50,660 bases of DNA from Gemmatimonadota bacterium (lineage in GTDB: Bacteria > Gemmatimonadota > Gemmatimonadetes > Longimicrobiales > Gaopeijiaceae), in NCBI GenBank assembly GCA_007121455.1, contig SKKN01000040.1:1-50660 (forward strand). The letters are read 5' to 3'. Below are positions 1-49,511 of the stretch, one piece after another (positions within the stretch are counted from its first letter, which is position 1; each line of letters starts with the position of its first letter). The translations under genes and the position numbers were made by a program. The notes below the pieces were generated by a model that worked only from the letters and a program-made list of their open reading frames with translations, was not told the origin of the DNA and searched no databases.

Positions 1-1000
1 CCGCGAGCTCCTCGAGCCGCTCCTTCGCCCAGGCGTAACTGCGTTGGTCTCCTGTAGCTCCGGAAGCTCGCGCGATCGACCCGAGTCCGATCGTACCCGC
101 ATGACCGGCGAGCCGAGGCAGGACCTGGAAGAAGACCGACAGGGCCGGAGCGTAGTAGCCGCGCTGTAGCCAGTAGTACCCGATGTCGTGCGCGAGCTGA
201 GGCAAAAGTCGGTGCCCCGGCCCGTATGCCTTTACGGCTCTTCGGGCGTACTCCCTCGCCGTCTCTGGATTACTGCATTCCTCCTCCAACACGAAGAGGT
301 CGTGCAGGGCCATCCCTTCGACATTTCGGAGACCCTGGCGAGTGGCTCGTCGAAGCGCCTTCAGGAAGTTCCGGCGGGCGGCCGGATAGGCTCCCTTTCG
401 CCTCATCAGGTTCCCGAGCGCGATGTACGCCCGGATGTATGTGTCCCAGTCGCGGGATTGTCTACTGAGACCCACCGCCCTCTGGAGCCAGGCTTCGGCG
501 CGCGAGTGCTGAGCCCGGTCCCGTGCTGCCCGACCCATCTGGAGGGCGTACCAGGCGTCGGATGGACATGCCACTGCCGCGGCCTGATAGAACTCCACTG
601 CGGTCAACCTGCGGCCGTCCTGTTCGGCCCACCGGCCCACCCGGCTGCATGCAAGCCCCACAGTGGATGGATCGACTCGTTCCGGATTGCGGGTGACGGC
701 CGCCAACGTCATCAGCGGCTCCTCGATCTCTTCGTCCACATCCAGAGCGAGGATCTCGGCCACCCTTCGGTCGTGGAGGTTGGACGGATAGAGGTCCTCC
801 CGCTCGCCCGGGCTCGTCTGGGCCCAGGTGAGGCTGGTTCTCAACGTCCTCCACAGAAGCGTCCCGAGTTCGGATGGAAACTCCTTCAGCACGTTGAGCC
901 CCATGGGACCGGGGGACTCCGCGTCGCGCAGCAAAGGAGGAGGGACGCGCCAGTGGCGCGTCAGAGCGGGTTCAGCCCGCGTTCTCGTTTCTCTGGTCAT
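1..1000 (-). CDS. TPR-repeat protein, 3' end cut by window edge
   Basis: Reading the minus strand from an ATG at 1000 gives an uninterrupted frame to the left edge (333 codons, no stop), so the C-terminus lies outside the window. A GGAGGG Shine-Dalgarno sits 5 nt before this ATG. After a polar N-terminus, from about residue 145 the protein is a series of helical pairs of tetratricopeptide type, for example around AWYALQMGRAARDRAQ, AYIALGNLMRRKGAYPAA and DIGYYWLQRGYYAPALSVF. Such repeats form protein-protein interaction scaffolds. No signal peptide, DNA-binding or catalytic domain is visible in the part present. It is divergent from the AbgT gene at 1253, sharing the 1001-1252 intergenic region. 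The specific partner is unknown. Confidence 0.8.
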   Translation of the reverse strand, partial: MTRETRTRAEPALTRHWRVPPPLLRDAESPGPMGLNVLKEFPSELGTLLWRTLRTSLTWAQTSPGEREDLYPSNLHDRRVAEILALDVDEEIEEPLMTLAAVTRNPERVDPSTVGLACSRVGRWAEQDGRRLTAVEFYQAAAVACPSDAWYALQMGRAARDRAQHSRAEAWLQRAVGLSRQSRDWDTYIRAYIALGNLMRRKGAYPAARRNFLKALRRATRQGLRNVEGMALHDLFVLEEECSNPETAREYARRAVKAYGPGHRLLPQLAHDIGYYWLQRGYYAPALSVFFQVLPRLAGHAGTIGLGSIARASGATGDQRSYAWAKERLEELA

Positions 1001-1252
1001 CGGCCCTCCGTGCCGCCGGGAAATAGTTTCCATCGAATAAACAAGATACCACCACCCGGAAAGAAAGGTTCTCTTCGCTCGAGTCGCAAGCAGAGTGTGC
1101 GTGGGGCAGGGTCGAGCGCAACCGCTTCGACGCTTTCCCCTCCGGCGTCCGGATGTTATCAGTCGGAGCCGGAACCGCTTCGCCCAAGGAGGGAGCGGAA
1201 TGCGTCCGCTCCGGGCCGGCTTGGTGCCCGGAGCTCGGGAGAGGGGGAGCGC

Positions 1253-2788
1253 ATGAACAAGCCGGGAACGGACGTACGGGGCGGGGAGTCAGGATGGGTG
1301 GATCGCGCCCTCGACTTCGTCGAACGCTCGGGTAACCGGCTCCCGGATCCGATTACGCTCTTCGTCATCTTCATGTTCCTCGTGCTCGGCGTGTCGTGGC
1401 TCGCCGCGGTCCTGGACTGGATGGCCGTGCATCCCGGCACCGGAGAGGAAATCCGGGCGGTCAACCTCGTTACTGCCGAGAGCCTCCAGCAGATCCTCGT
1501 GGAGATGCCCCGCACCTTCACCGACTTTCCACCTCTGGGGCTCGTTCTGGTGGTGATGATCGGTATCGGTGTCGCGGAGCGGAGCGGTCTGATCGAGACG
1601 GCATTGAAGGCTTTCGTCCGAAGCGTTCCGGGGTGGCTCGTGACCTCCGCGATCGTTCTGGCGGGCCTCCTCTCGAGCATGGCCGTCGACGCGGGATACG
1701 TCGTCTTGATTCCTCTGGGAGCTGTCATCTTCCATGGAATGGGACGTCATCCCATCGCCGGCCTCGCGGCCGCGTTTGCCGGCGTTTCGGGAGGCTTCAG
1801 CTCGAACCTCCTGCTCACTGCCCTCGATCCTCTCCTCGCGAGCTTCACCGAGCCTGCCGCCCGTCTACTGGACCCCGGATATGAGGTTCATGCAACGGCG
1901 AACTGGTGGCTCATGATCGCCCTGGTTCCGGTCTTCACCGTGGCGGGCACGTGGATCACCGAAAAGGTGCTCGAACCGAGGTTGGGCGAGTACACCGGCG
2001 ACCTCGAAGTGGAGGAGGGTGAGGATCTTTCGAAGGAGGAGGTGAGGGGCCTGTGGGCCGCGGGGTTCGTGCTCCTCGCCAGCCTCCTCCTCATCGCCTG
2101 GATGGCGGCTCCGGCCGACGGGGTGCTTCGGGGTCCCGAAGGGGAGATCGCGCCGCTGCTGAACAGCATCGTCGCTTTGATGCTCTTCGTGTTCTTCCTG
2201 CCCGGCCTCGCATACGGCATCGTGACCCGCAAGGTGCGAAGCGACAAGGATGTGGCGGAGATGACGTCGGAGACGATGGGGAGCATGGGGGCCTACATCG
2301 TCCTCGCCTTCGTCGCCGCGCACTTCATCGCCTTCTTCAACTGGTCCAACCTCGGTCTGATTCTGGCCATCAGTGGAGCGGACCTGCTTCAGGGAGTCGG
2401 TTTCACCGGGGTCCCGCTTCTCGTCGCCTTCGTGGGCGTTTCTGCCTTCATCAACCTTTTCATCGGAAGCGCCTCGGCGAAGTGGGCGGTGATGGCACCG
2501 GTCTTCGTTCCGATGCTGATGTTGATGGAATTCTCCCCGGAGTTGACGCAGGCGGGGTACCGAATCGGGGATTCGGTGACGAACATTCTCACCCCCCTTC
2601 TTCCGTACTACCCTCTGGTGATCATCTTCGCTCAGAAGTACGAGAAGGACATTGGGATCGGTACGATCATCTCCGCCATGCTTCCGTACTCGGTCGCGTT
2701 CACGCTCCTCGCGGTCCCGTTGCTCGTATTCTGGGTCCTTCTCGGAATCCCGCTCGGGCCCGAAGCTCCGAGCTACTACATGCCGTGA
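1253..2788 (+). CDS. AbgT family transporter
   Basis: A 511-residue polytopic inner-membrane protein of the AbgT family (the group of E. coli AbgT, p-aminobenzoyl-glutamate uptake, and MtrF-type sulfonamide/PABA exporters). It starts at the ATG at 1253 behind a GGGGGAG ribosome site; the open frame runs upstream to 188 but that part is antisense to the TPR gene. The N-terminal stretch ending FVERSGNRLPDPITLFVIF is characteristic, followed by about a dozen hydrophobic segments, a polar loop near residues 245-265, and a late segment with GDSVTNILTPLLPYYPLV resembling the conserved C-terminal hairpin of the family. Family members are proton-motive-force driven. No abgA/abgB hydrolase lies beside it, so substrate and direction cannot be told, although a secreted M14 carboxypeptidase is encoded convergently just downstream. 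Confidence 0.9.
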   Translation: MNKPGTDVRGGESGWVDRALDFVERSGNRLPDPITLFVIFMFLVLGVSWLAAVLDWMAVHPGTGEEIRAVNLVTAESLQQILVEMPRTFTDFPPLGLVLVVMIGIGVAERSGLIETALKAFVRSVPGWLVTSAIVLAGLLSSMAVDAGYVVLIPLGAVIFHGMGRHPIAGLAAAFAGVSGGFSSNLLLTALDPLLASFTEPAARLLDPGYEVHATANWWLMIALVPVFTVAGTWITEKVLEPRLGEYTGDLEVEEGEDLSKEEVRGLWAAGFVLLASLLLIAWMAAPADGVLRGPEGEIAPLLNSIVALMLFVFFLPGLAYGIVTRKVRSDKDVAEMTSETMGSMGAYIVLAFVAAHFIAFFNWSNLGLILAISGADLLQGVGFTGVPLLVAFVGVSAFINLFIGSASAKWAVMAPVFVPMLMLMEFSPELTQAGYRIGDSVTNILTPLLPYYPLVIIFAQKYEKDIGIGTIISAMLPYSVAFTLLAVPLLVFWVLLGIPLGPEAPSYYMP

Positions 2789-2839: not shown

Positions 2840-4384
2840 TCAGGGAACTCGAAGAACCGGGAAGGGGCCAGGCTCGAGGAGGTCGCGAAAGGCGTCGTAC
2901 TGGTAGAGGGAATGCATCGACTCCGGGTCGAGCGCGGTAGCAACGAGGAGTCCGGCCGGCTGTGCGGTGGGAATCATCAGGTCCCCCGGACGGGCGCGGA
3001 AGAGGATCTCCTCCGTATGGACCTCCGGCAGGGTGACCGTGCCCTCGAGCGTCTCCGTGACGAAGCCTTCCACGACGATCCGCTGCGCCCGAAGTTCCTC
3101 GCCCTCCTCGAGCTCCGTCGCGCTCACGCCATGACGAGCGAGAAGGTCCTGCAGGCCCGGGTGCGACGCCGGGATCACATACGCGCGGGGGAGCGGGATC
3201 GTCCGGCGGGGGGCGACGAGCGGCCGATACTCCTCGATCTCGGCAACGACCGTATCGCCCACGATCCAGGATTCGCCATCTCGTCGCACCTCTTCGACCG
3301 GAATGCGGAGCGACCCCCCACTCGACTCGCGACTCATCGTGAGGACGATCTCCTCCACCTTTCCATCCGTGACCTCCCGGCGCGCGGATCGTACTGTCCC
3401 CAACACCTCTTCGTGGTGGAAGGCGAGGAAGCGGAGCAATGCCTCCATCGCGAGGTGCTGGCCACGGGCTCTGCGCTCGATGTCCTCGGCGGGCGTGCGG
3501 CCACGCCGCCCCTCGTAAATGAACGAGAGGCTGTTGAGTATGGCGAAGCCCTGACGGCCATCGTTCACGTTCGTCGTGCTGTAGCGGATCCCCTCGGGAG
3601 TCCCGATGAGGTAGTTGTGTGCAGTGAATCCCCGCTCCTCGAGAAAGTCCACGGCGAAAGAGAGGAACCCTTCCTCGGCGAGCCGTCGGACCGCCGGCCG
3701 GGTGTTCAGGTTCGTCGGCAGGCCGATCTGCTCGTCGAAGAGGCGAAGCCAACCCCGCTCCAGCCAGGACCCGCTCCACGGCGAATATTCATGGAGGTCC
3801 ACCGTGACCTCGGGATTCCATCGATGGAAGAGCTCTCTGAGGAGGCCTACTTCCGGCGCGTCGAGGATGAGGTGGCTTCGGTTGAGATCCTGCCCGAGTG
3901 CGTTCTGTCGCTCGTGACGCTCTGCTCCGTCCGGGTTCACCTGCGGGACCATGAGAAGATCGACAGATCTCAGGGGCTCGTCGTATTCTCCCACCGCCAG
4001 GTCACGGGCGAGCGCGAGCATCGCCTCCTTCCCCGAGGGCTCGTTCCCGTGCTGCTGCGCGAAGAGGAGGGCCACCAGCCGATGTTCCCGGTCTGCTCCG
4101 AACGGACCGGTGCTGACCTTCAGGTACGGGATCCGCCTCCCCTCTACGGAGCTCCCCAGGGTGTGCACCGAGATGCGATCGGAGCTTTCCGCCAGGCTCT
4201 CCAGGAAGGAGACGAGCTCGGAGTGGGAGGTGAGCCGCTCGAACCCATTCGCTTCCAGTGGCGTCTCCTGGGCGGTCATCGGAGCGGCGTCGATGGTCGT
4301 AAACGCGACGATGCCGGCGAGGAGGGCTCGGAGGAGGGTCGAGCTCCCCCGCCGGGGTCGCTGCTCGACTTCAGGCTTGCTCAT
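2840..4384 (-). CDS. M14 family zinc carboxypeptidase, secreted
   Basis: A 514-residue zinc metallopeptidase of the M14 (carboxypeptidase A-like) family. The N-terminus has RPRR followed by a hydrophobic stretch and a likely cleavage after MTA-Q near residue 39, so export to periplasm or outside is expected. Metal ligands are visible: H112 and E115 in QQHGNEPSG, and H198 in DLHEY; E291 in FIYEGRRG is the probable general base. After the catalytic domain, residues from about 330 to 514 form a beta-rich extension without recognised identity. The start overlaps the end of the upstream acyltransferase gene by 14 bases, implying translational coupling. Substrate is unpredicted: peptides or peptidoglycan side chains are both possible in this family. 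Confidence 0.88.
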   Translation of the reverse strand: MSKPEVEQRPRRGSSTLLRALLAGIVAFTTIDAAPMTAQETPLEANGFERLTSHSELVSFLESLAESSDRISVHTLGSSVEGRRIPYLKVSTGPFGADREHRLVALLFAQQHGNEPSGKEAMLALARDLAVGEYDEPLRSVDLLMVPQVNPDGAERHERQNALGQDLNRSHLILDAPEVGLLRELFHRWNPEVTVDLHEYSPWSGSWLERGWLRLFDEQIGLPTNLNTRPAVRRLAEEGFLSFAVDFLEERGFTAHNYLIGTPEGIRYSTTNVNDGRQGFAILNSLSFIYEGRRGRTPAEDIERRARGQHLAMEALLRFLAFHHEEVLGTVRSARREVTDGKVEEIVLTMSRESSGGSLRIPVEEVRRDGESWIVGDTVVAEIEEYRPLVAPRRTIPLPRAYVIPASHPGLQDLLARHGVSATELEEGEELRAQRIVVEGFVTETLEGTVTLPEVHTEEILFRARPGDLMIPTAQPAGLLVATALDPESMHSLYQYDAFRDLLEPGPFPVLRVP

Positions 4385-27737: not shown

Positions 27738-29300
27738 TCATGGCTCTCCGAAAGGGTAAAACCGGGCGAGATCGACGTGTTCGTACTCGAGGGCGTCGAG
27801 TCGGATGGTCCCGAACCAATACCCCGGCGCATCTACGATGTGGATGGTCGGCGCATAGCCGGTTTCGTCGAAGCCGCGGCGAAAGTGGACCCGCGTCTTC
27901 AGGACGAAAACGTCGAAGTCGTCCGGCTCGATCGGGCCGAAGCGGATCTGCTCCGGGGTAGTGATCTGCTGATACGCGGGCACGAGGATGAGCACGTTCC
28001 CGTCTCCGTGTTCCACGGCGGCGACCCGGTCATATCCCCATCGCTCCCCTCGCCAGATCAGGGTTCCGTCGACTTGCACCGGGGGACCGGCCTGCGGTCC
28101 TGTGTACCCGCCTGCCTCCATGCGAACCGCGTCGCCCGGCTGAACCCCCTCTTCCCATATCCGGTCGAGCGTGGGCTCGGCGGTCAGGGCGGCGTAGAGG
28201 ACGCGGGAAACTCCCTGATCCAGGAGCGCGCTCAGAGTCCATGTCGCGTCCCCGGGACGATCCCAGTAATCCGCGAGCACGACCGGTACTTCCCCGGCTG
28301 CGGTCGCCTCCCGGGTCAACCGGACCGCCTCCTCAGGAGACGGGAAGGACCCGTGCGCGTAGTCCTCCCTCATCCGCCAGATATAGTCCGACACGTCCTC
28401 GGCGATATGTTCCGCCAGCTCCTGGTCGTCATTGGTCATCACGTGGACCGTCGTCCCGATGTTCGGTACGTCGGACCAGGGAAACCCCAGGAAGACGCTC
28501 ACGTAGACCCCGGGCTCACGCGCCTCCCATCGTCGGGCGCGCTCCATGATGTCCATCACCGGATAGGCGCCCGTCCACTGGAGTACGGTGGGGGTCACGA
28601 TGGGTGGACGCCGCGTGGCGGTCGTCGGCTGGTAGTCGCCCCGCATGACCAGGCGCAGGTACCGGGCCGCGCGCTCACCCTGAAGGTAGGAGTCGTAGTG
28701 GGGAAAGCGCTTCGTCACGAAGGCACCGTCCGCCCACTGGAGGAACTCCTCGTCCTCGTTGCCATGGAGGTCGAAGGTGGCGACGATCGGCACATTCGGT
28801 CCGACGACCTCGCGGAAGCGGCGCGCCATCTCCGCCTCCGGCCGCGTGATATTGCGAACTGCCATCGCTCCATGGAGGGAGAGGAAGACGCCATCGACCG
28901 GGAGCGCTGCCTCGAGTTCCTCCAACATCTGGCCGACGAAGTGATCGAAGACCTCCTCCTCGTTCCACGTTCTGGAGGACCCTCCCCAGACCCCCGTCGG
29001 TGAGGTGAGGCCCACGAGCTCGATGTCCCCGAACTCGCGGGCCTGCTTCACGAAGCCACCGACGTACGATCCGAGCTCGAGAAGCTCGTCGCCCCGGTAC
29101 GGCTCCCGCGTGCGCGTCCAGTCTTCGATGCCAGGGTCGGGGCCGGGGCAGAAGGTGCAGGTCTCATGGGAGAAGCGGGCGACCGCCACCCTGTGGGGGG
29201 TCCCGTCCTCATCCTCGGCTGTCGCGCACGCCGTGGGAATCGCGGGAAGTGCGACGACGAAGAGAAGCCCGAGGAACGGAAAAGCGCCCCGCCCCCCCAT
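27738..29300 (-). CDS. M81 family metallopeptidase (MlrC-like), lipoprotein
   Basis: A 520-residue protein of the M81 family, named from microcystinase MlrC. Zinc-site motifs are FLSLHGAMAV, ATFDLHGN and FPHYDSY; a C-terminal MlrC_C-like domain is seen (EAGGYTGPQAGPPVQVDGTL). The start is the ATG at 29300, 5 bases after the upstream stop, behind GGAAAGGAA. The N-terminus has a hydrophobic stretch ending IPTAC (C25), a likely though imperfect lipobox, so the protein would sit on a membrane outside the cytoplasm. Many M81 members of environmental bacteria are not microcystin degraders; linear peptides or other amides are possible substrates. Confidence 0.88.
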   Translation of the reverse strand: MGGRGAFPFLGLLFVVALPAIPTACATAEDEDGTPHRVAVARFSHETCTFCPGPDPGIEDWTRTREPYRGDELLELGSYVGGFVKQAREFGDIELVGLTSPTGVWGGSSRTWNEEEVFDHFVGQMLEELEAALPVDGVFLSLHGAMAVRNITRPEAEMARRFREVVGPNVPIVATFDLHGNEDEEFLQWADGAFVTKRFPHYDSYLQGERAARYLRLVMRGDYQPTTATRRPPIVTPTVLQWTGAYPVMDIMERARRWEAREPGVYVSVFLGFPWSDVPNIGTTVHVMTNDDQELAEHIAEDVSDYIWRMREDYAHGSFPSPEEAVRLTREATAAGEVPVVLADYWDRPGDATWTLSALLDQGVSRVLYAALTAEPTLDRIWEEGVQPGDAVRMEAGGYTGPQAGPPVQVDGTLIWRGERWGYDRVAAVEHGDGNVLILVPAYQQITTPEQIRFGPIEPDDFDVFVLKTRVHFRRGFDETGYAPTIHIVDAPGYWFGTIRLDALEYEHVDLARFYPFGEP

Positions 29301-29304
29301 TCGG

Positions 29305-30156
29305 CTATTCCTTTCCGGAGGGCACGAGGAGGACGGGGGCGGCAGCGCGGCGCGCCACCTGGCGGCTCTCGCTACCCAGGACGATCCCGGGCAGGAAGCC
29401 ACGTCCCTGGGTTGCCATGACGACCATCGAATCGGGGTCCCGCCCGCCTACCGCGAGAACCTCCTCGGAGGGGACTCCGGAGCGGATCACCGCCCGCACC
29501 TTCGCGGCTCCCGCTTCCCGAAGCTGCGTTGCCAGGAGATCGAGCCTGCCCTGGGCTTCGGTGCGGGTCTCCGCTGTATCCGCATCTTCTACATGGAGGA
29601 CGATGAACTCGGACACGCCCAGGGCGGCGAGTTGAAGCACCCAGGGAAGGGCCCGCTCCGCCGCCTCCGAGAAGTCGGTTGCGTACACCACCGAGTTGGG
29701 AACTCCGGAGCTCCGGGACTCGAGCGCGGCTTCCGGGTCGGGACGGCTCGCCTCGATCCGGTGGAGGAGCACCGGCCTCTGTGCGCGTCGGACCAGCTCC
29801 CATGCCACGCTTCCCACGAAGGCCTCGTAGAGCTTGGTGTGGCTCCGCGTTCCGACCATCAGGATGTCCGGATCCCACTCGTTTGCGATCCGGACGATCT
29901 CTGCTGCGGGAGAGCCCGTTGGAACATCCACGGTCACCGTGAGTCCGGTCTCCTCCAACCGGGCCGCAAGCGTTCGCAACCGTGCACGGATGTCTTCGAC
30001 GCGGCGAAGCGACTGTGAGACGGGATTTTTCACAGGCTTCGCGGCGTGAACCAGGTTCACCTCCTTGGTCCCGAAATCCTTCAGGTCGGGGAGCACGGAG
30101 ACGAGGGCCTCCGTGGCGGGCGAGAGGTCCATCGCGACGAGCACTCGGTCGAACAT
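29305..30156 (-). CDS. Universal stress protein, two tandem Usp domains
   Basis: A 283-residue cytoplasmic protein with two UspA folds (about 1-145 and 155-283). Each has the ATP-binding G-x2-G-x9-G(S/T) type motif: VGTRSHTKLYEAFVGSVA in the first and MATQGRGFLPGIVLGSES in the second; the first has a less perfect glycine pattern. The start is the ATG at 30156 with GGAG 6 bases upstream; the longer frame to 30375 reads as non-coding. It is the first gene of a unit with the M81 peptidase. Two-domain Usp proteins respond to starvation, redox or osmotic stress. Confidence 0.92.
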   Translation of the reverse strand: MFDRVLVAMDLSPATEALVSVLPDLKDFGTKEVNLVHAAKPVKNPVSQSLRRVEDIRARLRTLAARLEETGLTVTVDVPTGSPAAEIVRIANEWDPDILMVGTRSHTKLYEAFVGSVAWELVRRAQRPVLLHRIEASRPDPEAALESRSSGVPNSVVYATDFSEAAERALPWVLQLAALGVSEFIVLHVEDADTAETRTEAQGRLDLLATQLREAGAAKVRAVIRSGVPSEEVLAVGGRDPDSMVVMATQGRGFLPGIVLGSESRQVARRAAAPVLLVPSGKE

Positions 30157-30802: not shown

Positions 30803-32524
30803 CTACCGGACCTTCAGGGTCCGGAGTCGGTTGAGGGCGGCAGCGAGCTCGAAGCGTCGAAATGCCACCAGGTCACCTGGAAACCGGTCGGAGAGGATGT
30901 CGAGCCCCGACTCCTCCACCGCCTCCATCACTCCATCGAGAATCTCGGGGATCGACCGCTTTCCGTCCATGAATTCGTTTCGGGCGAGTAGGAGCGCCTG
31001 GGCGAGGGTGCCGGCCTGGGCCCAGGACACGACCTGCTCCACAGCCGAGAGGTCGATCGGTGTCGTGCCGAAGAGGATCTCGTCCCGGCCGTGCGCTTTC
31101 AGGTGGACGCTCCTTCTTCCTCGACTGGGGTCGAGGGAGTCGGCGAGGGGAACGCGGCGACCCTGGACCTCGACCCCTCCGGGCACCTCCGCGATCCGCC
31201 CGGTGGGGAAGTCCAGCGCCACCTGATGGGCGCGATCGGAGATATCTTCGGCCTCGTACCGGGTCATGGCGATGACCGTGTCCGCCACATCGAGGTAGTC
31301 GCCGCTCCCCCCGAGCGCGAGCAGCGAGCTCACGCCCTTCTCGGTGTGCAGCTCTCCGATCCGGTCGATCAACGGGGTGATGGGCTCGCGATCGCGCGGC
31401 ACGAGGGCCTGCATCCTCCGGTCCCGGATCATGAAGTTGGTCGCCGCGGTGTCCTCGTCGATCAGGAGGAGCCGCGCTCCGGCCTCGAGGGCTTCGATGA
31501 TCGTCGCCGCCTGGCTCGTGGAGCCGGAAGCGTTGTCGGTGGAGAACCTCCTCGTATCGCTTCCGCCCGGCAGGCCCTGGATGAAGGCCGAGATGTCCAC
31601 GCGGCGGACCGACCGGCCGTCCTCCGCCCGAATCTTCACGGCGGCGGGATCGGAGACGACCTGCTCCCTCCCGTCTCCCGGCCGGTGGTTATAGATGCCA
31701 CTTTGCACGGCTCGAAGCAGCGTGCTTTTCCCATGATAGCCGCCCCCCACGATGAGGGTCACTCCGCGCCTGATTCCCATCCCCGCCACCCAGCCCGCGT
31801 TCGGCGCCTCGAGGCTCACCCGGAGTGAAGCCGGTGACCGGAATGGAACGACGCCGTCTCCCCGGAGCGGACGGTCATCGACCCCGCTTCGGCGCGGAAG
31901 GACCGAGCCATCGGCGACGAAGGCGACGAGGCCCTTGGATGCGAGGGCGGCGCGGAGTGCCTCGGCATCCTCGTTCACCTCCGCATGGAGATGAAGTTTC
32001 TCTTCGTCGTAGGCTCCTGAGGTCAACGTGCGTGCGATCAGCGACGGCACCGCGTCGCAGAGCAGCTCCGCAGCCTGCCGGCCGAGGATCGTCCGCCCGC
32101 GGGCGGGAAGCCCCACGGTGAAGCGGGCTTCCAGGTCCCCGGAGCTTTCGATCCGGATGGCGGTGGTGGGTATGACCTTCTGCTCGGTCGATTCGATCCG
32201 GATCTGCCCGCTTTTTCCGCTTCCGGAGCCCCGGATCCGGCCGGCCTCCCCGGAGAACCGGCGAGAGAGCAGGCAGGCCACGCCGGTCGCCCTCGCGACC
32301 GGATCGCAGACCTCCACGGGGAAGCCAGCCACCTGCGCGGGCAGTCGCACCCGGACCCGGCTCGGTGCCGCGAACGGGTCGCCCTGGACGTGGTCGATCG
32401 TGAGGGAGAAGCTCTGGAAGCTCCACTGTCCCCCGATCTCCTTATACGCCTTGTAGCCCCGACCGTCCAATGCCTCGAGAGCTCGTCGCAGGTCGTGGTG
32501 GTCGCGTCCAGGGGAATTGGGCAT
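30803..32524 (-). CDS. ABC-class ATPase, COG3044 type
   Basis: A 573-residue soluble ATPase of the family called predicted ATPase of the ABC class. The N-terminal ~245 residues are a family-specific domain, beginning HHDLRRALEALDGRGYKAYK. The ATPase part has Walker A GGGYHGKST (260-268), a signature-like NASGSTSQA (331-339) and Walker B LLLIDED (352-358), then a helical C-terminus. No membrane spans or transporter partner are present. The start at 32524 is chosen because family members begin near the HHDLR motif; the ribosome site is weak. Biological role is not established for this family; nucleic-acid or RNA-related roles have been speculated. The cupin gene follows after 10 bases. Confidence 0.85.
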   Translation of the reverse strand: MPNSPGRDHHDLRRALEALDGRGYKAYKEIGGQWSFQSFSLTIDHVQGDPFAAPSRVRVRLPAQVAGFPVEVCDPVARATGVACLLSRRFSGEAGRIRGSGSGKSGQIRIESTEQKVIPTTAIRIESSGDLEARFTVGLPARGRTILGRQAAELLCDAVPSLIARTLTSGAYDEEKLHLHAEVNEDAEALRAALASKGLVAFVADGSVLPRRSGVDDRPLRGDGVVPFRSPASLRVSLEAPNAGWVAGMGIRRGVTLIVGGGYHGKSTLLRAVQSGIYNHRPGDGREQVVSDPAAVKIRAEDGRSVRRVDISAFIQGLPGGSDTRRFSTDNASGSTSQAATIIEALEAGARLLLIDEDTAATNFMIRDRRMQALVPRDREPITPLIDRIGELHTEKGVSSLLALGGSGDYLDVADTVIAMTRYEAEDISDRAHQVALDFPTGRIAEVPGGVEVQGRRVPLADSLDPSRGRRSVHLKAHGRDEILFGTTPIDLSAVEQVVSWAQAGTLAQALLLARNEFMDGKRSIPEILDGVMEAVEESGLDILSDRFPGDLVAFRRFELAAALNRLRTLKVR

Positions 32525-32589
32525 CTTAAGGACGTTTCGCGAGATGGGAAGTGCCAGGACTCCAGCGAATCCTGAGACAGGTCCAGCCG

Positions 32590-33093
32590 ATGACATCGAC
32601 GAAAGCGCGGATGGTCGTACCCGTGATGATCGAGGTTCCGAAGGGGAGCCGCAACAAATACGAGTACGACAAGGCACGACAGAGGATCCGGTTCGACCGT
32701 CTCCTCTTTTCTCCGGTCCACTACCCGACGGATTACGGGTTCATCGAGTCGACGCTCGCGTTGGACGGCGACCCGATCGACGCGCTCGTGCTGGTGTGGG
32801 AGCCGACCTTCCCCGGATGCCTGATCGAAGCCGCCCCCGTAGGCCTCTTCGAGATGCATGACGAGAAGGGGCCCGACGAGAAGATCCTCTGCGTCCCGAT
32901 CCATGATCCGCACTGGAGCTCCATCGAAACGCTCGACGACGTCCCTTTTCACCTGCTACGGGAAGTGGAGCACTTCTTCACGATCTACAAGGACCTGGAG
33001 GAGAAGGAGGTGCGGGTGGAGGGATGGCGGCCGAGGGAGGCCGCCGAGGCAAGGGTGAGGGAGGCGCGCGAGCGGTTCTCCGGCTCGCCTTAG
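32590..33093 (+). CDS. ppa: Inorganic pyrophosphatase, family I
   Basis: A 167-residue soluble pyrophosphatase, hydrolysing PPi to phosphate and pulling biosynthetic reactions forward. The family I sequence is clear: IEVPKGSRNKYEYDK, PVHYPTDYGFIEST and GDPIDALVL, the last holding metal-binding aspartates. The start is uncertain: I use the ATG at 32590; a GTG at 32551 and an ATG at 32611 are in frame, and none has a strong ribosome site. It is divergent from the COG3044 ATPase gene with only 65 bases between them, and a secreted amidohydrolase gene follows after 70 bases. Confidence 0.93.
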   Translation: MTSTKARMVVPVMIEVPKGSRNKYEYDKARQRIRFDRLLFSPVHYPTDYGFIESTLALDGDPIDALVLVWEPTFPGCLIEAAPVGLFEMHDEKGPDEKILCVPIHDPHWSSIETLDDVPFHLLREVEHFFTIYKDLEEKEVRVEGWRPREAAEARVREARERFSGSP

Positions 33094-33163: not shown

Positions 33164-34768
33164 ATGCGCACGGCGCCCACATGGCTCATCGCCGGTCTGC
33201 TGGCTCTGGTATTGACGGGGCTCGGTCCTCCCATCGGTGCGCAGCAGCCGTTGGACGAAAGACACTTCGACGTGCTCATCCGGGGAGGAAGGGTTCTGGA
33301 CGGCGCGGGCAACCCCTGGTTTCGAGCCGATGTGGGAGTCCAGGACGGCCGGATCGTCGCGGTGGGGCGCCTCCCGTCGGCAACGGCATCCGAGGAGGTC
33401 GATGCACGGGGCCTCCATGTGGCGCCGGGTTTCATCGACGTACATTCGCATGCCGGGGGAGGACTCGCGACCGAGGACCGGAGCCACGCCCGCCCGCTGC
33501 TTGCTCAGGGGATCACCACGGTCGTTGTGAATCCCGATGGTGGAGGACCGGTCGATCTCGCCACTCAGCGGAGGGAGCTGCTCGAGGACGGGCTCGGGGT
33601 CCACGCAGCCCTCCTCGTCCCCCACGGCTCCATTCGGAACGAGGTTCTCGGCATGGAGGACCGGCCGCCTACGGAAACGGAGCTCGAGCGGATGCGAGCG
33701 CTCGTCCGCACCGGGATGGAGGAGGGGGCATTCGGGCTCTCCAGCGGCGTCTTCTACGCTCCCGGGAGCTTCGCCGACACGGATGAGCTCGTGGCTCTCT
33801 CCAGCGTCATCGCGGAGTTCGGCGGCGTCTACACGAGCCACATCCGTGACGAGTCGAACTACACGATCGGGGTGCTGGAGGCAGTGGAGGAGGTCATCGC
33901 CGTAGCGCGCGAGGCCGAGGTCCGGGGCATCGTGACGCATGTGAAGGCCCTTGGCCCGCCTGTCTGGGGCTTCTCCGAGGCCATCGCGCTTCGAGTCGAG
34001 CGTGCACGGGACGAAGGCGTCGAGGTGTTCGCCGACCAGTATCCCTACACCGCCTCTGCCACAGGGCTCGCTGCCGCGCTCGTCCCCCGGTGGGCACAGG
34101 CCGGAGGAGACGCATCGTTCGAGGAGCGCCTGGCAGATGCGGAGGCGCGGCGACGGATCGAGCGGGAAATGCATGAAAACCTGGCTCGTCGGGGTGGGGC
34201 GGAGCGGATCCAGTTCCGACGCTTCGAGGAGGACCCCTCCCTGGAGGGGCGGACGCTGGATGCGGTGGCGCGGGAACGGGGGGTGGACCCGGTGGATCTC
34301 ACCCTCGAGCTGCTGCAAATCGGTGCGCCGGCGATCGTCTCCTTCAACATGCTGGGCGAGGACGTGGAGCGACTCATGCGCCGGCCGTGGACGATGACCG
34401 GATCGGACGGCGGCCTGCCGGAATGGGAGGTTGGAGTTCCCCATCCTCGCTCCTACGGCGCGTTTCCCCGGAAGCTCCGTCAGTATGTGGTGGAGGATGG
34501 CGTGCTCACCCTGGAGGAGGCCGTGCGGAGCATGACCGGGCTTTCCGCAACCGTGTTCGGGATGGAGGAGCGGGGCTTCATCCGGACCGGTGCGGTCGCC
34601 GATGTGGTCGTCTTCGATCTCGACGAGGTGCATGATCCGGCTACCTTCACCGACCCTCACCAACTTGCGGAGGGGATGGAGCATGTCCTCGTGAACGGCG
34701 AGTTCGCCATCCGCGACGGGGCCTTCACTGGAGTGCGCGCCGGCGAGGTCCTGCGCGGGGGACGCTGA
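33164..34768 (+). CDS. Secreted amidohydrolase, N-acyl-D-amino-acid deacylase-like
   Basis: A 534-residue metal-dependent amidohydrolase with signal peptide (WLIAGLLALVLTGLG, cleavage near GAQ). It starts at an ATG behind GGAGGAGG; the frame open from 33110 is not needed. Metal-site motifs: HxH at H94/H96 in GFIDVHSHAG, H226 in YTSHIRDE, H259 in VTHVKALG and D415 in TGSDGG. The order matches D-aminoacylase and dihydroorotase-like relatives. In D-aminoacylases a metal-binding Cys follows as VVVGNCG; here the segment reads VVVNPDGG, with Asp in place of Cys, so the site is altered. Likely substrates are N-acylated amino acids or small cyclic amides in the periplasm. Confidence 0.88.
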   Translation: MRTAPTWLIAGLLALVLTGLGPPIGAQQPLDERHFDVLIRGGRVLDGAGNPWFRADVGVQDGRIVAVGRLPSATASEEVDARGLHVAPGFIDVHSHAGGGLATEDRSHARPLLAQGITTVVVNPDGGGPVDLATQRRELLEDGLGVHAALLVPHGSIRNEVLGMEDRPPTETELERMRALVRTGMEEGAFGLSSGVFYAPGSFADTDELVALSSVIAEFGGVYTSHIRDESNYTIGVLEAVEEVIAVAREAEVRGIVTHVKALGPPVWGFSEAIALRVERARDEGVEVFADQYPYTASATGLAAALVPRWAQAGGDASFEERLADAEARRRIEREMHENLARRGGAERIQFRRFEEDPSLEGRTLDAVARERGVDPVDLTLELLQIGAPAIVSFNMLGEDVERLMRRPWTMTGSDGGLPEWEVGVPHPRSYGAFPRKLRQYVVEDGVLTLEEAVRSMTGLSATVFGMEERGFIRTGAVADVVVFDLDEVHDPATFTDPHQLAEGMEHVLVNGEFAIRDGAFTGVRAGEVLRGGR

Positions 34769-34906: not shown

Positions 34907-35953
34907 GTGATGACGAGAGCAGGGATTTCGACCTCACCCGACCCGGGGATCGCGGCTTCGGAAGTCGGGGCCGAGCGCGGAGCGGTTCGCGGCTTCATGG
35001 AGCACCACTACCGGCATTTCAATGCGCGGGAGACCCTCGGCGCGGCCAGGGCGTACGAAGCCCACATCGATGCCGGGGGAAAGATGCTGGTCTCCCTGGC
35101 CGGCGCCATGTCCACAGGCGAGCTCGGGATCATCCTCTCCCGAATGATCCGGGAGGGAAAGGTCCATGCGATCTCGTGCACGGGCGCGAATCTGGAGGAG
35201 GATGTCTTCAACCTCCTCGGGCGCGACACCTACGAGATCATCGGGGACTGGAGGGCGCTCTCGGTGCGCGACGAGGTGGATCTCTTCGAGCGCGGCATGA
35301 ATCGGGTGACGGACACCTGCATCCCCGAGGACATCATGAGGCATCTCGAGGCACGGCTTTTGGAGCGCTGGGGAGAGGCGTGCGAGCAGGGCGTACGAAA
35401 GTTTCCCTACGAGTTCCTCTTCGACACCCTCGGCTCCGGCGAGTTGGACGAGCACTTCCAGATGGACCCGAAGGAGTCGTGGATGTGGGCTGCGATGGAG
35501 GCCGGCATTCCTGTGTACTCCCCCGGGTGGGAGGACTCGACGACCGGCAACATGTTCGCGGCGGCGGTCATGAGCGGAGTGCTCCCCCACCATCAGTGCG
35601 TGAAGTCGGGGACGGAGCAGTTCCAGGCGGTGATGGAGTGGTACCTGGAGAACAATGGGGAGAAGATCGGGGCGCCTTCCGTGGGGTTCTTCCAGATCGG
35701 CGGAGGAATCGCCGGTGATTTCGCGATCTGCGCCGTCCCCTCCATCATCCAGGATCTGAAACGCAAGACCCCCTTCTGGGGGTACTTCGCCCAGATCTCC
35801 GACGCGGAGGTGTCGTACGGCGGGTATTCGGGTGCGGTCCCCAACGAGAAGATCACCTGGGGCAAGCTCGCTGCGGACACCCCGAAGTTCCTGGTCAAGT
35901 CAGATGCCACGATCGTGGCGCCCCTCATATTTGCGTACGTCCTCGGCGACTGA
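34907..35953 (+). CDS. Deoxyhypusine synthase family enzyme
   Basis: A 348-residue NAD-dependent enzyme of the deoxyhypusine/homospermidine synthase family, which moves the butylamine group of spermidine to a lysine or amine. Conserved family features include MLVSLAGAMSTGELGIIL, ISCTGANLEED, YSPGWEDSTTGNM and the catalytic Lys K320 in ITWGK. By comparison with human DHS, the GGG segment continues IAGDFA rather than VPKHHIANA, so the spermidine-contacting His is missing, and SDSG is GYSG. Bacteria lack eIF5A, so the role is unlikely to be hypusination; polyamine transfer is an inference. The start may be the GTG at 34907 (9 bases after GGAGG) or the ATG at 34910. Confidence 0.88.
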   Translation: MMTRAGISTSPDPGIAASEVGAERGAVRGFMEHHYRHFNARETLGAARAYEAHIDAGGKMLVSLAGAMSTGELGIILSRMIREGKVHAISCTGANLEEDVFNLLGRDTYEIIGDWRALSVRDEVDLFERGMNRVTDTCIPEDIMRHLEARLLERWGEACEQGVRKFPYEFLFDTLGSGELDEHFQMDPKESWMWAAMEAGIPVYSPGWEDSTTGNMFAAAVMSGVLPHHQCVKSGTEQFQAVMEWYLENNGEKIGAPSVGFFQIGGGIAGDFAICAVPSIIQDLKRKTPFWGYFAQISDAEVSYGGYSGAVPNEKITWGKLAADTPKFLVKSDATIVAPLIFAYVLGD

Positions 35954-37469: not shown

Positions 37470-38312
37470 ATGGGTTGGAGACCTATGCGTTCCATGTATC
37501 TGGGACTGTTCCTCGGCATCGTCGCGCTCGCAGTAGCACCGTCGGCCGCTTCGGCGACGTGGTCCGTGATCGCCCTGGACCGCGAGAGCGGTCAGGTGGT
37601 GATCGCCTCGGCGACATGTGTGTCGGCGGAAGGCCTGCGGACCCGCGGGGGGCTCATGTCCATCCAGGCGGTGGTCGCTCCCGGGGTAGGAGTGGCAGCC
37701 GCGCAGGCCGGGGTGGATCGCACCCGTGAGAACCAGAATCTCATCTACCGCGAGCTTCATGAGGGGACCCATCCGGAGCAGATCCTCGAGTTATTGAGGG
37801 AGGATCCGGACATCGAGCGTCGGCAGTTCGCGATTCTGGATCTTCAGGGCCGTGCTGCCGGCTTTTCGGGGAGCGAGAACGGCGATGCTGCGCTGGCGGT
37901 CGATGGGCAGGTGCCCGGGACGGAGATCTTCTTCTCGGTGCAGGGAAACATCCTCGCGTCGGACGAGGTCGTGCACGACGGAGTCGACGCGTTTCTCGCC
38001 ACGGAGGGAGAGCTCGGCGACCGGGTCATGGCAGCGATGGAAGCAGCGGACCGGGCAGGTGGGGATCGCCGATGCACCTGTGACACGGAGCCGATCCCCG
38101 ACGCGCAGTGCACGGCGAAGACATCCCACGTCGCATACATCGTGATTGCGGACCCCGACGACCCTCCGGGTGACTCGCACAACGACGGAGACTACTTCCT
38201 CTTCACCGACGTCGACGACGAGAACATCCGCCCGCACGAAGACGCGAACCCTGTGGTCACGCTGAGGATGCGCTACGACGAGTGGAAGACCGAACAACAG
38301 GCGGGGCGCTGA
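37470..38312 (+). CDS. Secreted DUF1028 protein (Ntn-hydrolase-like), copy A
   Basis: A 280-residue exported DUF1028 family protein. The ATG at 37470 follows AAGGAG by 7 bases. The signal peptide ends PSAASA, directly before T30-W-S-V, so cleavage would expose an N-terminal Thr followed by WSVIALDRESGQVVIAS, the opening strand-turn of the family; this is where Ntn hydrolases hold their nucleophile. Further features are GVGVAAAQAGVD, ERRQFAILDLQG, FFSVQGNILAS and a Cys-containing insert CTCDTEP. DUF1028 has no established substrate. It is closely similar to copy C at 39332; the stop is two bases from the start of copy B. Confidence 0.85.
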   Translation: MGWRPMRSMYLGLFLGIVALAVAPSAASATWSVIALDRESGQVVIASATCVSAEGLRTRGGLMSIQAVVAPGVGVAAAQAGVDRTRENQNLIYRELHEGTHPEQILELLREDPDIERRQFAILDLQGRAAGFSGSENGDAALAVDGQVPGTEIFFSVQGNILASDEVVHDGVDAFLATEGELGDRVMAAMEAADRAGGDRRCTCDTEPIPDAQCTAKTSHVAYIVIADPDDPPGDSHNDGDYFLFTDVDDENIRPHEDANPVVTLRMRYDEWKTEQQAGR

Positions 38313-38313
38313 G

Positions 38314-39318
38314 ATGAGGAGCTGCCGCGGCTTGTTGATGGTGGTTCTCCTCCCCTTGCAGCTGCATGGCCAGAACGAGCCTTCGGCAATCCTCGGAGAG
38401 GAGGACGTTTCGACCTTTTCCATCATCGCGTACGATCCGGATACCGAAGAGCTGGGCATCGGTATCCAATCCCGGGCCTTCCGGGCAGGGGCGATCGTCT
38501 CGTGGGCTGAAGCGGGTGTCGGTGCAGTGGCCACCCAGGCGTCCGCGAACCAGCTGTACAAGCAGCGGGCGATGGAGCTTCTGAAGGAGGGGCACTCTCC
38601 GGAGGGAGCCGTGGAGATCATGACCGGAGAGGATCCGGGCCGTGATCAGAGGCAGGTTGCGGTGATCGATGTCGAAGGCCGGATCGGTGTTCATACCGGC
38701 GCCGACCGGATTGCACGCCCCGATCAGTACGCTGGACACATCGTGGGGTCGAACTACTCGGTGCAGGGAAACACCCTGGCGGGCCGGTGGGTCCTCACGG
38801 AGATGGCGCGGGTCTACGAGGAGACCGAGGGAGAAATGGCGGAGCGGCTTCTCGCCTCGCTCGAGGCTGGGGAAGCGGTGGGGGGAGACGTACGAGGCAT
38901 GCAGGCCGGGTCGATCCTGGTGGTTCGGCCGATCGATGGGAACCGGACGACGGACCGATGGGTCGATATCCGGGTCGACGACGCGGATGATCCCTACGCA
39001 GAGCTCCGCCGGCTGCTGGACATGAGTCTGAGCGGCAGGGAAGCCGACCGGGCCGCCGCTCTCCTGGAAGGGGGACGGGTGGCCGAGGCGATCGAAGTCC
39101 TGGAGGCGGCGATTCGGATGAACCCGCGCCGGGACAACTGGATGTTCACGCTGGCCGAATGGCACGCCGAGGCGGGGGAAGACCGGGAGGCGCTCAACAC
39201 GTTGAGGCGTGCGATCCGGCAGAACCCGCAGTGGAAGGCCGAGGCTCGCGGGAGCTCCGTGCTCTCCCGCTTCGCGGACCTGGATGAGTTTCAGCAGATG
39301 ACACGAGATGAACCGTAG
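38314..39318 (+). CDS. DUF1028 protein with TPR-like tail, copy B
   Basis: A 334-residue exported DUF1028 protein, starting one base after the previous stop. The signal sequence GLLMVVLLPLQLHG is short; the family core begins later with T34 in STFSIIAYDPDTEELGIGI, so exposure of the Thr would need further trimming. It is nearer the common form of the family (AIVSWAEAGVGAVATQASAN, YSVQGNTLAG) than copies A and C. Residues 245-320 add a TPR-like helical tail (RVAEAIEVLEAAIRMNPRRD, EALNTLRRAIRQNPQ) that could bind a partner. The position between two closely related copies suggests a three-component assembly or processing series, an inference. Confidence 0.83.
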   Translation: MRSCRGLLMVVLLPLQLHGQNEPSAILGEEDVSTFSIIAYDPDTEELGIGIQSRAFRAGAIVSWAEAGVGAVATQASANQLYKQRAMELLKEGHSPEGAVEIMTGEDPGRDQRQVAVIDVEGRIGVHTGADRIARPDQYAGHIVGSNYSVQGNTLAGRWVLTEMARVYEETEGEMAERLLASLEAGEAVGGDVRGMQAGSILVVRPIDGNRTTDRWVDIRVDDADDPYAELRRLLDMSLSGREADRAAALLEGGRVAEAIEVLEAAIRMNPRRDNWMFTLAEWHAEAGEDREALNTLRRAIRQNPQWKAEARGSSVLSRFADLDEFQQMTRDEP

Positions 39319-39331
39319 AGGAGTTCGTTCC

Positions 39332-40174
39332 ATGCGTATGCCACGTCTTCGTTCAGAAGTGCTCGGGTTCGCGGGCATCTGTGCCGCGCTCTTCTTCACG
39401 CCCCTGCACGGCTCGGCCACCTGGTCGGTGCTCGCGTTGGACGAAGACACGGGGCAGGTCGTCATCGCCTCGGCGACGTGCGTGCCCCAGGAACGGCTGC
39501 GAACCTTCCCCTCCAACGGCCTCATGGACATCCAGGCCATCGTGGTCCCGGGTGTGGCGGTAGCCGCCGCCCAGGCCGGTGTGGACGTCACCCGCGAGAA
39601 CCAGAACGTGATCTACCGGGAGCTCAGGCGGGGCAGCGAGCCGGCGAGCATCCTCGAGCTCTTGAAGGAGGATCCCGAGATCGAGCGGCGGCAGTTCGCG
39701 ATCCTCGATCTTCAGGGTCGTTGGGCAGGCTTTTCCGGAAGTGGGAACGGCTCCGTGGCCGATCATAGCTATGGACACATCCCCGGGACCGGAATCCACT
39801 TCTCGGTGCAGGGGAACATCCTGGCGTCGGAGCGCGTCGTGTACGACGCCGTGAAGGCCTTCATGGCGGACGACGGTTCGCTCACCGACCGGGTCATGGC
39901 GGCGATGGAAGCCGCGGATGCCGCGGGAGGGGATTCCCGGTGCACCTGCGAGACCGAGCCTCCCACGGCCGCCGCTCAGTGTACCGGAAGGACGTCCCAC
40001 GTCGCGTACATCCTGGCCGCTAATCCAGGGGACGCGGCTGGAGAGAGCTTCAACGACGGAGACTACTCGCTCTTCCTCGACGTGCATGACGAGAACATCC
40101 GTCGGGAAGAGGACGCGAACCCCGTCCGCACCCTGCGCATGCGCTACGACGCCTGGAAGGAATCCCGCCGCTGA
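39332..40174 (+). CDS. Secreted DUF1028 protein (Ntn-hydrolase-like), copy C
   Basis: A 280-residue protein, the same length as copy A and strongly similar throughout. The ATG at 39332 is used because GAGGAG lies 9 bases upstream; an ATG at 39308 would overlap copy B. The signal peptide ends LHGSA, and again T30 of TWSVLALDEDTGQVVIAS follows immediately. The conserved insert CTCETEP and the segments GVAVAAAQAGVD, RRQFAILDLQGRWAGFSG and HFSVQGNILAS match copy A. The Cys pair in both may form a disulfide outside the cytoplasm. The reaction is unknown. Confidence 0.85.
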   Translation: MRMPRLRSEVLGFAGICAALFFTPLHGSATWSVLALDEDTGQVVIASATCVPQERLRTFPSNGLMDIQAIVVPGVAVAAAQAGVDVTRENQNVIYRELRRGSEPASILELLKEDPEIERRQFAILDLQGRWAGFSGSGNGSVADHSYGHIPGTGIHFSVQGNILASERVVYDAVKAFMADDGSLTDRVMAAMEAADAAGGDSRCTCETEPPTAAAQCTGRTSHVAYILAANPGDAAGESFNDGDYSLFLDVHDENIRREEDANPVRTLRMRYDAWKESRR

Positions 40175-48299: not shown

Positions 48300-48315
48300 A
48301 GGCTCCGGCGTTTTT
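48284..48315 (+). terminator. Terminator overlapping the serA 3' end
   Basis: CGCCGAGC (48284-48291) pairs with GCTCCGGCG (48302-48310) with one bulged base; five T residues follow at 48311-48315. The stem includes the final serA codons. Confidence 0.6.
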
Positions 48316-49511
48316 CAGGGATCGATCATGTTGTAGCGGCGGAGGACCTCCCGCACCTCGTCGAGAGGGAGGGCCTCCGCCGTGCTTCCCATGCCCGTGA
48401 CGGTCGTCGCCATGAGGAGCGAGTTATAGATCGCCTCCTCCGTACTCTCGACCACGGCCTGAAAGAGCGCCGAGGCGGCTGCGTTCGGAAGCTCCTCGGT
48501 TCGCAGACGATCCTGCCCCGTACGACGCCGGACCTCGGTAGCGGTCGAAAACGCGATCACGTAGTCGCCCGACCCGTTCGACATGAAGGAGCCCGTTCGG
48601 GCCAGACCCATCACCGCGCGGGATGCGAGCCGTTCCAGATTCCGGTCGGAGAGGGGAGCATCCGTCGCGACGACGATCATAATCGAACCCTCCTCCTCCT
48701 CACCGTTCGGTTCGACGTCGCCGCGGAAGGAGTACCGTCCTAGCTCCTGGCCCACCGGTGCGCCGGCGATCGATAGAATTCCTCCGTAGTTCGACTGGAC
48801 GAGCACCCCTACGGTCCACCCGCCGAGCGTTCCGGGGAGAACCCGGCTGCTCGTCCCGATGCCCCCTTTCCATCCGAACGCGCGGGTTCCGGTACCCGCC
48901 CCCACGGAGCCTTCCTCCACGGGGCCCGGTCGAGCGCCCTCGAGAGCCTCCCAGACGACCTCCGGGGTGATGGGCCGGCTCCGGATGTCGTTCAGGCCCC
49001 CGTCGTTCGTCTCTCCTACGACCGGGTTGATCGAGCGGACATCCTCCATCCCATCTTGACGCAGGAGCCACTCCGTCATGGCGTCGGCGGCCTGCCAGAC
49101 GCAGAGGGTGCATGTCAGCAGGATCGGGGTCTCGAGCTCGCCCAGCTCCCGGACCTGCGTAATTCCGAGAAGCTTTCCGAAACCGTTTGCCACGTGGATC
49201 GCCGCGGGTGCCCGCTCCCGGAACAGATCGCCCCCATGGGGAAGGATCGCGGTCACGCCGGTATTCACGCGTTCCCCTTCACGAAGCGTGACCTGGCCCA
49301 CCCGGACGCCTTCCACGTCCGTGATCGCGTTCGCGGCGCCAGGCGGGAAGATGCCGACTTCGATACCCATGTCGCGCGCACGGGTGCGTCCCTCCTCCCC
49401 GGCCGAAGTGCTTTCCAGGGCCGGTCCATGGCCGGGCGGAGGGGGTGTTTGGCTCACCAATACCACGGGGAGGAGCAGGAGCGGGAGAAGTGTGAGGGCG
49501 AAGCGGTGCAT
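48315..49511 (-). CDS. P1 family peptidase, DmpA-type self-processing aminopeptidase
   Basis: A 398-residue exported peptidase of the S58/DmpA family. The signal peptide FALTLLPLLLLPVVLVSQT is followed by the family body: ITDVEGVRVGQVTL, NPVVGETNDGGLND, GTGTRAFGWKGGIGTSSR, and SFMSNGSGDYVIAFST. By comparison with O. anthropi DmpA, autoproteolysis would take place at G275-S276 (EEEGSIMIVVATDAPL), leaving Ser276 as N-terminal nucleophile of the beta chain, an Ntn-like mechanism of the DOM fold. Members release D- or beta-amino acids from small peptides. It is a further secreted peptidase beside M14, M81 and DUF1028 proteins in this window. Confidence 0.92.
   Translation of the reverse strand: MHRFALTLLPLLLLPVVLVSQTPPPPGHGPALESTSAGEEGRTRARDMGIEVGIFPPGAANAITDVEGVRVGQVTLREGERVNTGVTAILPHGGDLFRERAPAAIHVANGFGKLLGITQVRELGELETPILLTCTLCVWQAADAMTEWLLRQDGMEDVRSINPVVGETNDGGLNDIRSRPITPEVVWEALEGARPGPVEEGSVGAGTGTRAFGWKGGIGTSSRVLPGTLGGWTVGVLVQSNYGGILSIAGAPVGQELGRYSFRGDVEPNGEEEEGSIMIVVATDAPLSDRNLERLASRAVMGLARTGSFMSNGSGDYVIAFSTATEVRRRTGQDRLRTEELPNAAASALFQAVVESTEEAIYNSLLMATTVTGMGSTAEALPLDEVREVLRRYNMIDP

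Follow-up and report, generated by a model that had tools for sequence, protein, structure and literature searches.

A clade of exported DUF1028 proteins with a threonine predicted to be exposed by signal peptidase at the nucleophile position of the Ntn-hydrolase fold

Can the removal of a signal peptide be, by itself, the step that switches an enzyme on? The question is raised by a 50,660-nucleotide stretch of DNA from a Gemmatimonadota bacterium (contig SKKN01000040.1, positions 1 to 50,660, here called the window), in which three adjacent genes encode exported proteins of the DUF1028 family, two of them with a threonine directly behind the signal peptide. DUF1028 occurs in bacteria and archaea, with one deposited structure and no peer-reviewed function. 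It has already been classed as a family of Ntn hydrolases, and activity has been reported for no member (PMC9140057). In the open literature searched, no papers on DUF1028, PF06267 or COG3342 were found, and SPO2555, the protein of the deposited structure, appeared in one review only.

The reading favoured here, to which we give a probability of about 0.7, is that the first and third copies (A and C) are exported enzymes of the Ntn fold, which would be activated at export by a type I signal peptidase cut before the threonine, and that the second copy (B) would carry a further propeptide.

The three genes are located on the forward strand at 37470-38312 (A, 280 residues), 38314-39318 (B, 334 residues) and 39332-40174 (C, 280 residues). 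All of them exceed the curated cut-off of 26.2 bits for the Pfam DUF1028 profile (PF06267), with 98, 214 and 93 bits, respectively, and signal peptides were found in all, so the initial annotation of three consecutive secreted DUF1028 genes holds. The similarity that it had noted between the two 280-residue copies was also found, with 71% identity between the mature parts of A and C. Both cover only positions 1-158 of the 193 in the profile, and B is a canonical member. The 2imh structure was matched by A (E=5.7e-12) and by B (E=7.4e-20). The source genome contains 10 DUF1028 genes.

The signal peptidase junction and the predicted fold

The signal peptide of A (37470-37556) ends in PSAASA and that of C in LHGSA, and both are directly followed by Thr30-Trp31-Ser32, as annotated; Thr30 maps to 37557-37559 in A and to 39419-39421 in C. 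Both copies show the features of type I signal peptidase substrates, namely a short hydrophobic N-terminus and small residues at -3 and -1 (ASA in A, GSA in C), and the best rule-based site was at offset 0 from the threonine in each of them.

Homologs of this kind (A-type proteins) were collected with search patterns placed away from the N-terminus, which were built on an alignment of 20 mature parts. The 80 relatives obtained have Thr at +1 and Trp at +2 without exception, Ala at -1 in 78 cases and Ala, Leu or Val at -3 in 78, with the start methionine mostly 19-30 codons ahead of the threonine. A second, independent family of the phylum showed the threonine junction in 20/20 proteins, all with Ala at -1. 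Together with A, C and a third copy from the same genome, these make 103 A-type sequences from Gemmatimonadota, Acidobacteriota and Steroidobacter; threonine lies directly behind a predicted type I site in all 103 and Ala is at -1 in 101, some of these rows being near-identical strains and all sharing descent, so that they do not count as independent events. Signal-peptide length varies while the junction is constant, and the median identity is 33% for the signal peptides minus their last three residues versus 62% for the mature parts. With the simple -3/-1 rule, the top-scoring site coincided with the threonine junction (offset 0) in 68 of the 81 A-type proteins scored, but in 0 of the 23 exported canonical DUF1028 proteins. 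This predictor is crude, and where canonical proteins gave negative offsets, as several did, the start codon had been chosen too close. The counts in the two families and the absence of such a site in the canonical proteins indicate that the junction is conserved beyond chance. A signal-peptidase-exposed threonine is thus well supported as a prediction for A and C, with type I cleavage expected exactly before Thr30.

An AlphaFold2 model of mature A (pLDDT 91, pTM 0.91) gave 2imh as the top Foldseek match, followed by proteasome and HslV subunits. In VIA-align the Z score was 25.3 for 2imh (200 residues at 2.4 A), and it fell to about 15.8 for circularly permuted taspase-1 and to about 10 for the proteasome subunits. 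The alignments started with residue 1 of mature A, which was paired with residue 2 in 2imh and with Thr1 in two archaeal beta subunits, 1pma and 1j2q, indicating that Thr30 of the precursor occupies the place of the Ntn nucleophile. The confident AlphaFold model predicts an Ntn-hydrolase fold for A with the threonine at the nucleophile position, as the initial annotation had proposed; the first strand of the fold begins with this residue. In silico, neither a cleavage of A and C elsewhere nor a threonine away from the catalytic position was found, the two outcomes that would have spoken against that proposal.

In an alignment of 106 rows, Thr1, Trp2 and Ser3 of the mature protein are all invariant, as are R89, Q90, N131, D155, D170 and R172, and catalysis by the threonine is predicted for A and C. 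No column of this alignment had Lys in at least 90% of the rows and no invariant Lys was found in a second alignment, indicating that Lys33 of the proteasome is not shared and that catalytic details differ. Cysteine as the N-terminal nucleophile was not found either, threonine being present in every A-type row (80 + 20).

All 103 A-type proteins have four cysteines in common (Cys21, 173, 175 and 185 in the numbering of mature A); Cys21 maps to 37617-37619 and its proposed partner Cys173 to 38073-38075. Three lipoprotein-type relatives have retained Cys21 and Cys173 and lost both 175 and 185. This joint loss suggests the pairs 21-173 and 175-185, so that the invariant cysteines may form two disulfides.

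Copy B and other members with residues ahead of the threonine

In copy B the likely signal peptidase cut is MRSCRGLLMVVLLPLQLHG/Q, and Thr34 (38413-38415) lies about 14 residues beyond it. Exposure of the threonine by signal peptidase, which had been annotated for all three copies, therefore stands for A and C and was rejected for B. The linker of B (38371-38412), a possible propeptide, was modelled as disordered (pLDDT about 36). Beyond it, AlphaFold2 gave a DUF1028 fold as in A followed by a TPR tail (TPR_19, residues 250-310, 39061-39243), so that B differs from its neighbours in the way first described. Residue 14 of the model aligned with Thr1 of the proteasome despite the linker, and B in this respect resembles a propeptide-bearing precursor.

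Longer linkers ahead of the threonine were found in canonical exported DUF1028 proteins. Among 12 plasmid-borne cytoplasmic relatives, 8 start with Met-Thr, as do the two plasmid-borne relatives closest to 2imh, and removal of the methionine would bare the same threonine; in 4/12 there are 3-17 residues after the start residue. Members with residues ahead of the threonine suggest that a free N-terminus may be dispensable across the family, or that other processing exists. For those with linkers or fusions, this processing would be a second cleavage, perhaps self-made, unless a free threonine is dispensable in them.

The lipoprotein-type relatives of A (L007, which is contig C50 of the same genome, L039 and L040) have a lipobox cysteine, a linker and then Thr-Trp-Ser, with Cys21 and Cys173 only. 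A cut before their threonine would also detach the enzyme from its lipid anchor. In two other loci (L064, 7281-11042, and L071, 8444-11754) a fusion protein has an M28 peptidase with membrane segments ahead of its canonical DUF1028 domain, and the threonine is near residue 1000, behind WPPAG or WPPVG. The architecture of these fusions suggests a peptide-related role and, if the threonine is the nucleophile, an internal cleavage.

Distribution, gene neighbours and alternative readings

A-type proteins were found in 111/395 genomes of the phylum, and also in Acidobacteriota and in Steroidobacter agaridevorans. Their recurrent, non-universal neighbours encode a metallo-beta-lactamase-fold lipoprotein, a PhoX-like protein, a class I/II aminotransferase and a creatininase. 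These point to no clear pathway, and deduction of the substrate from them was dropped. In L052 (G007) no stop codon separates the A-type frame from that of a metallo-beta-lactamase-fold protein, which is often encoded downstream of A-type genes elsewhere; this is either a fusion or an assembly error.

Cytoplasmic members of the family adjoin RidA, acetylornithine deacetylase, a gamma-glutamyltransferase-like protein or peptide-type ABC transporters. Many genes of the window itself code for exported proteins or are linked to peptides or amides, among them those for a peptidase S58 of the self-processing DmpA type, Amidohydro_3, M14, M81 and an AbgT transporter (48315-49511 (-), 33164-34768 (+), 2840-4384 (-), 27738-29402 (-) and 188-2788 (+)). 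Neighbour genes offer a hint in favour of amide or peptide substrates, and the substrate of A and C may be a small amide, a peptide or an acyl-amino compound. Also present in the window are a bacterial deoxyhypusine synthase family protein (34907-35953 (+), PF01916, 136 bits), two genes upstream of A, and a predicted ABC-class ATPase with ABC_N, ABC_ATPase and MRB1590_C domains (30803-32677 (-)).

The locus had been interpreted as a dedicated extracytoplasmic system composed of A, B, C and the lipoprotein gene upstream of A. The spacing agrees with this: 1 base separates A from B and 13 bases separate B from C, or the latter two overlap if C starts at another possible ATG (39308), so that the three genes look like a single transcript. 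One other genome (L061) also carries a canonical copy immediately upstream of its C orthologue. However, none of the other genomes searched has the A-B-C order, only 5/80 A-type loci have another DUF1028 gene within about 6 kb, and the lipoprotein gene, initially annotated as coding for a propeller but without a Pfam match in the profile search, is not conserved beside A-type genes. In the tree, C is sister to the L061 protein (support 100/99) and A is placed elsewhere, which also led to the rejection of a recent tandem duplication as the origin of A and C. With neither order nor neighbours conserved, the dedicated system was rejected as a very unlikely explanation.

Two further readings concern the threonine itself. 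It could be structural, the junction being fixed by packing since the first strand begins there, and the protein could be a non-enzymatic binder or a pseudo-enzyme. The lack of a known activity in the family would fit such a role, and so would the invariance of Trp2 and Ser3, equal to that of Thr1, and the retention of the threonine behind preceding residues in other DUF1028 members. But relatives of the same fold bear long extensions before it, indicating that packing does not forbid them, and the six invariant Arg, Gln, Asn and Asp residues listed above are as expected for an active site, making a purely structural threonine unlikely. Alternatively, signal peptidase could cut A and C elsewhere and the threonine could be bared later, by autoproteolysis or trimming, as B requires if its threonine is catalytic. 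The simple rule did favour another site in 13 of the 81 scored proteins; yet the threonine site was among the top three in all 13, 8 of the 13 alternatives fall inside the mature strand, and Ala at -1 is retained almost throughout (101/103), which leaves a later step highly improbable.

Proposed activation and comparison with known systems

Under the favoured reading, activation by the signal peptidase cut, type I signal peptidase would cleave A and C right before the threonine, turning Thr30 of the precursor into Thr1 of the mature protein. The cut would free the alpha-amino group of this residue, with which the first core strand begins, and its hydroxyl would act as the nucleophile. As the nucleophile would be freed only by this cut, the enzyme would be inert in the cytoplasm and competent once exported, with no need for autoproteolysis; export itself probably switches A and C on. 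Outside the cell, the two putative conserved disulfides would stabilise them. Copy B, a canonical DUF1028 protein with a TPR tail, would carry an additional propeptide of about 14 residues. If its threonine is also the nucleophile, a second cleavage would be required, which B might carry out itself, as proteasome beta subunits do.

An Ntn enzyme activated by export alone would be safe intracellularly. What appears to be new, judging from the sequences, is a widespread clade of threonine Ntn hydrolases matured by signal peptidase itself. We lean towards type I signal peptidase being the sole maturation protease of this clade, with sister groups using methionine removal or a second propeptide cleavage, and, as part of the same reading, it is somewhat probable that one fold would reach an N-terminal threonine by three routes. 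The clade provides a testable prediction of the catalytic residue and the activation step of DUF1028, and a cultured A-type relative is available in Steroidobacter agaridevorans (L140).

The closest known protein is SPO2555 of Silicibacter pomeroyi (PDB 2imh, SCOPe d.153.1.7), listed as a subfamily of N-terminal-threonine Ntn hydrolases (PMC9140057). It shares with A the Pfam family, the fold, the N-terminal Thr-aromatic-Ser and the residues Q50, R89-Q90, G130-N131, D170 and R172. Unlike A, it is cytoplasmic and lacks the signal peptide, the four cysteines and the insert around them. Its threonine is numbered 2 in the entry yet comes fourth in the chain sequence, from which we infer extra construct residues that would block it, the native start being Met-Thr. 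The free-threonine form of DUF1028 thus seems not yet to have been seen in the 2imh crystal, and activity may have escaped assays on a tagged cytoplasmic protein.

Exposure of the nucleophile by signal peptide removal has a precedent in the Gram-negative penicillin V acylases and the Bacteroides bile salt hydrolases, exported Ntn hydrolases in which it bares a cysteine. A and C, also exported, are predicted to share this mode of exposure, but the acylases and bile salt hydrolases have a cysteine nucleophile and belong to another subfamily, and no sequence kinship with them was found. No report of a threonine-type Ntn enzyme exposed in this way was found in the literature searched.

Proteasome beta subunits and HslV resemble A and B in the Ntn fold and in the threonine aligned with Thr1, and the linker of B resembles the beta propeptide. 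A and C differ from them in having no conserved equivalent of Lys33 and no sign of ring assembly or an unfoldase, and from the beta subunits in their predicted maturation by signal peptidase instead of autoproteolysis. Taspase-1 and the glycosylasparaginases share with A the Ntn fold and a threonine nucleophile, proposed in the case of A, but in these enzymes the nucleophile is normally freed by internal autoproteolysis.
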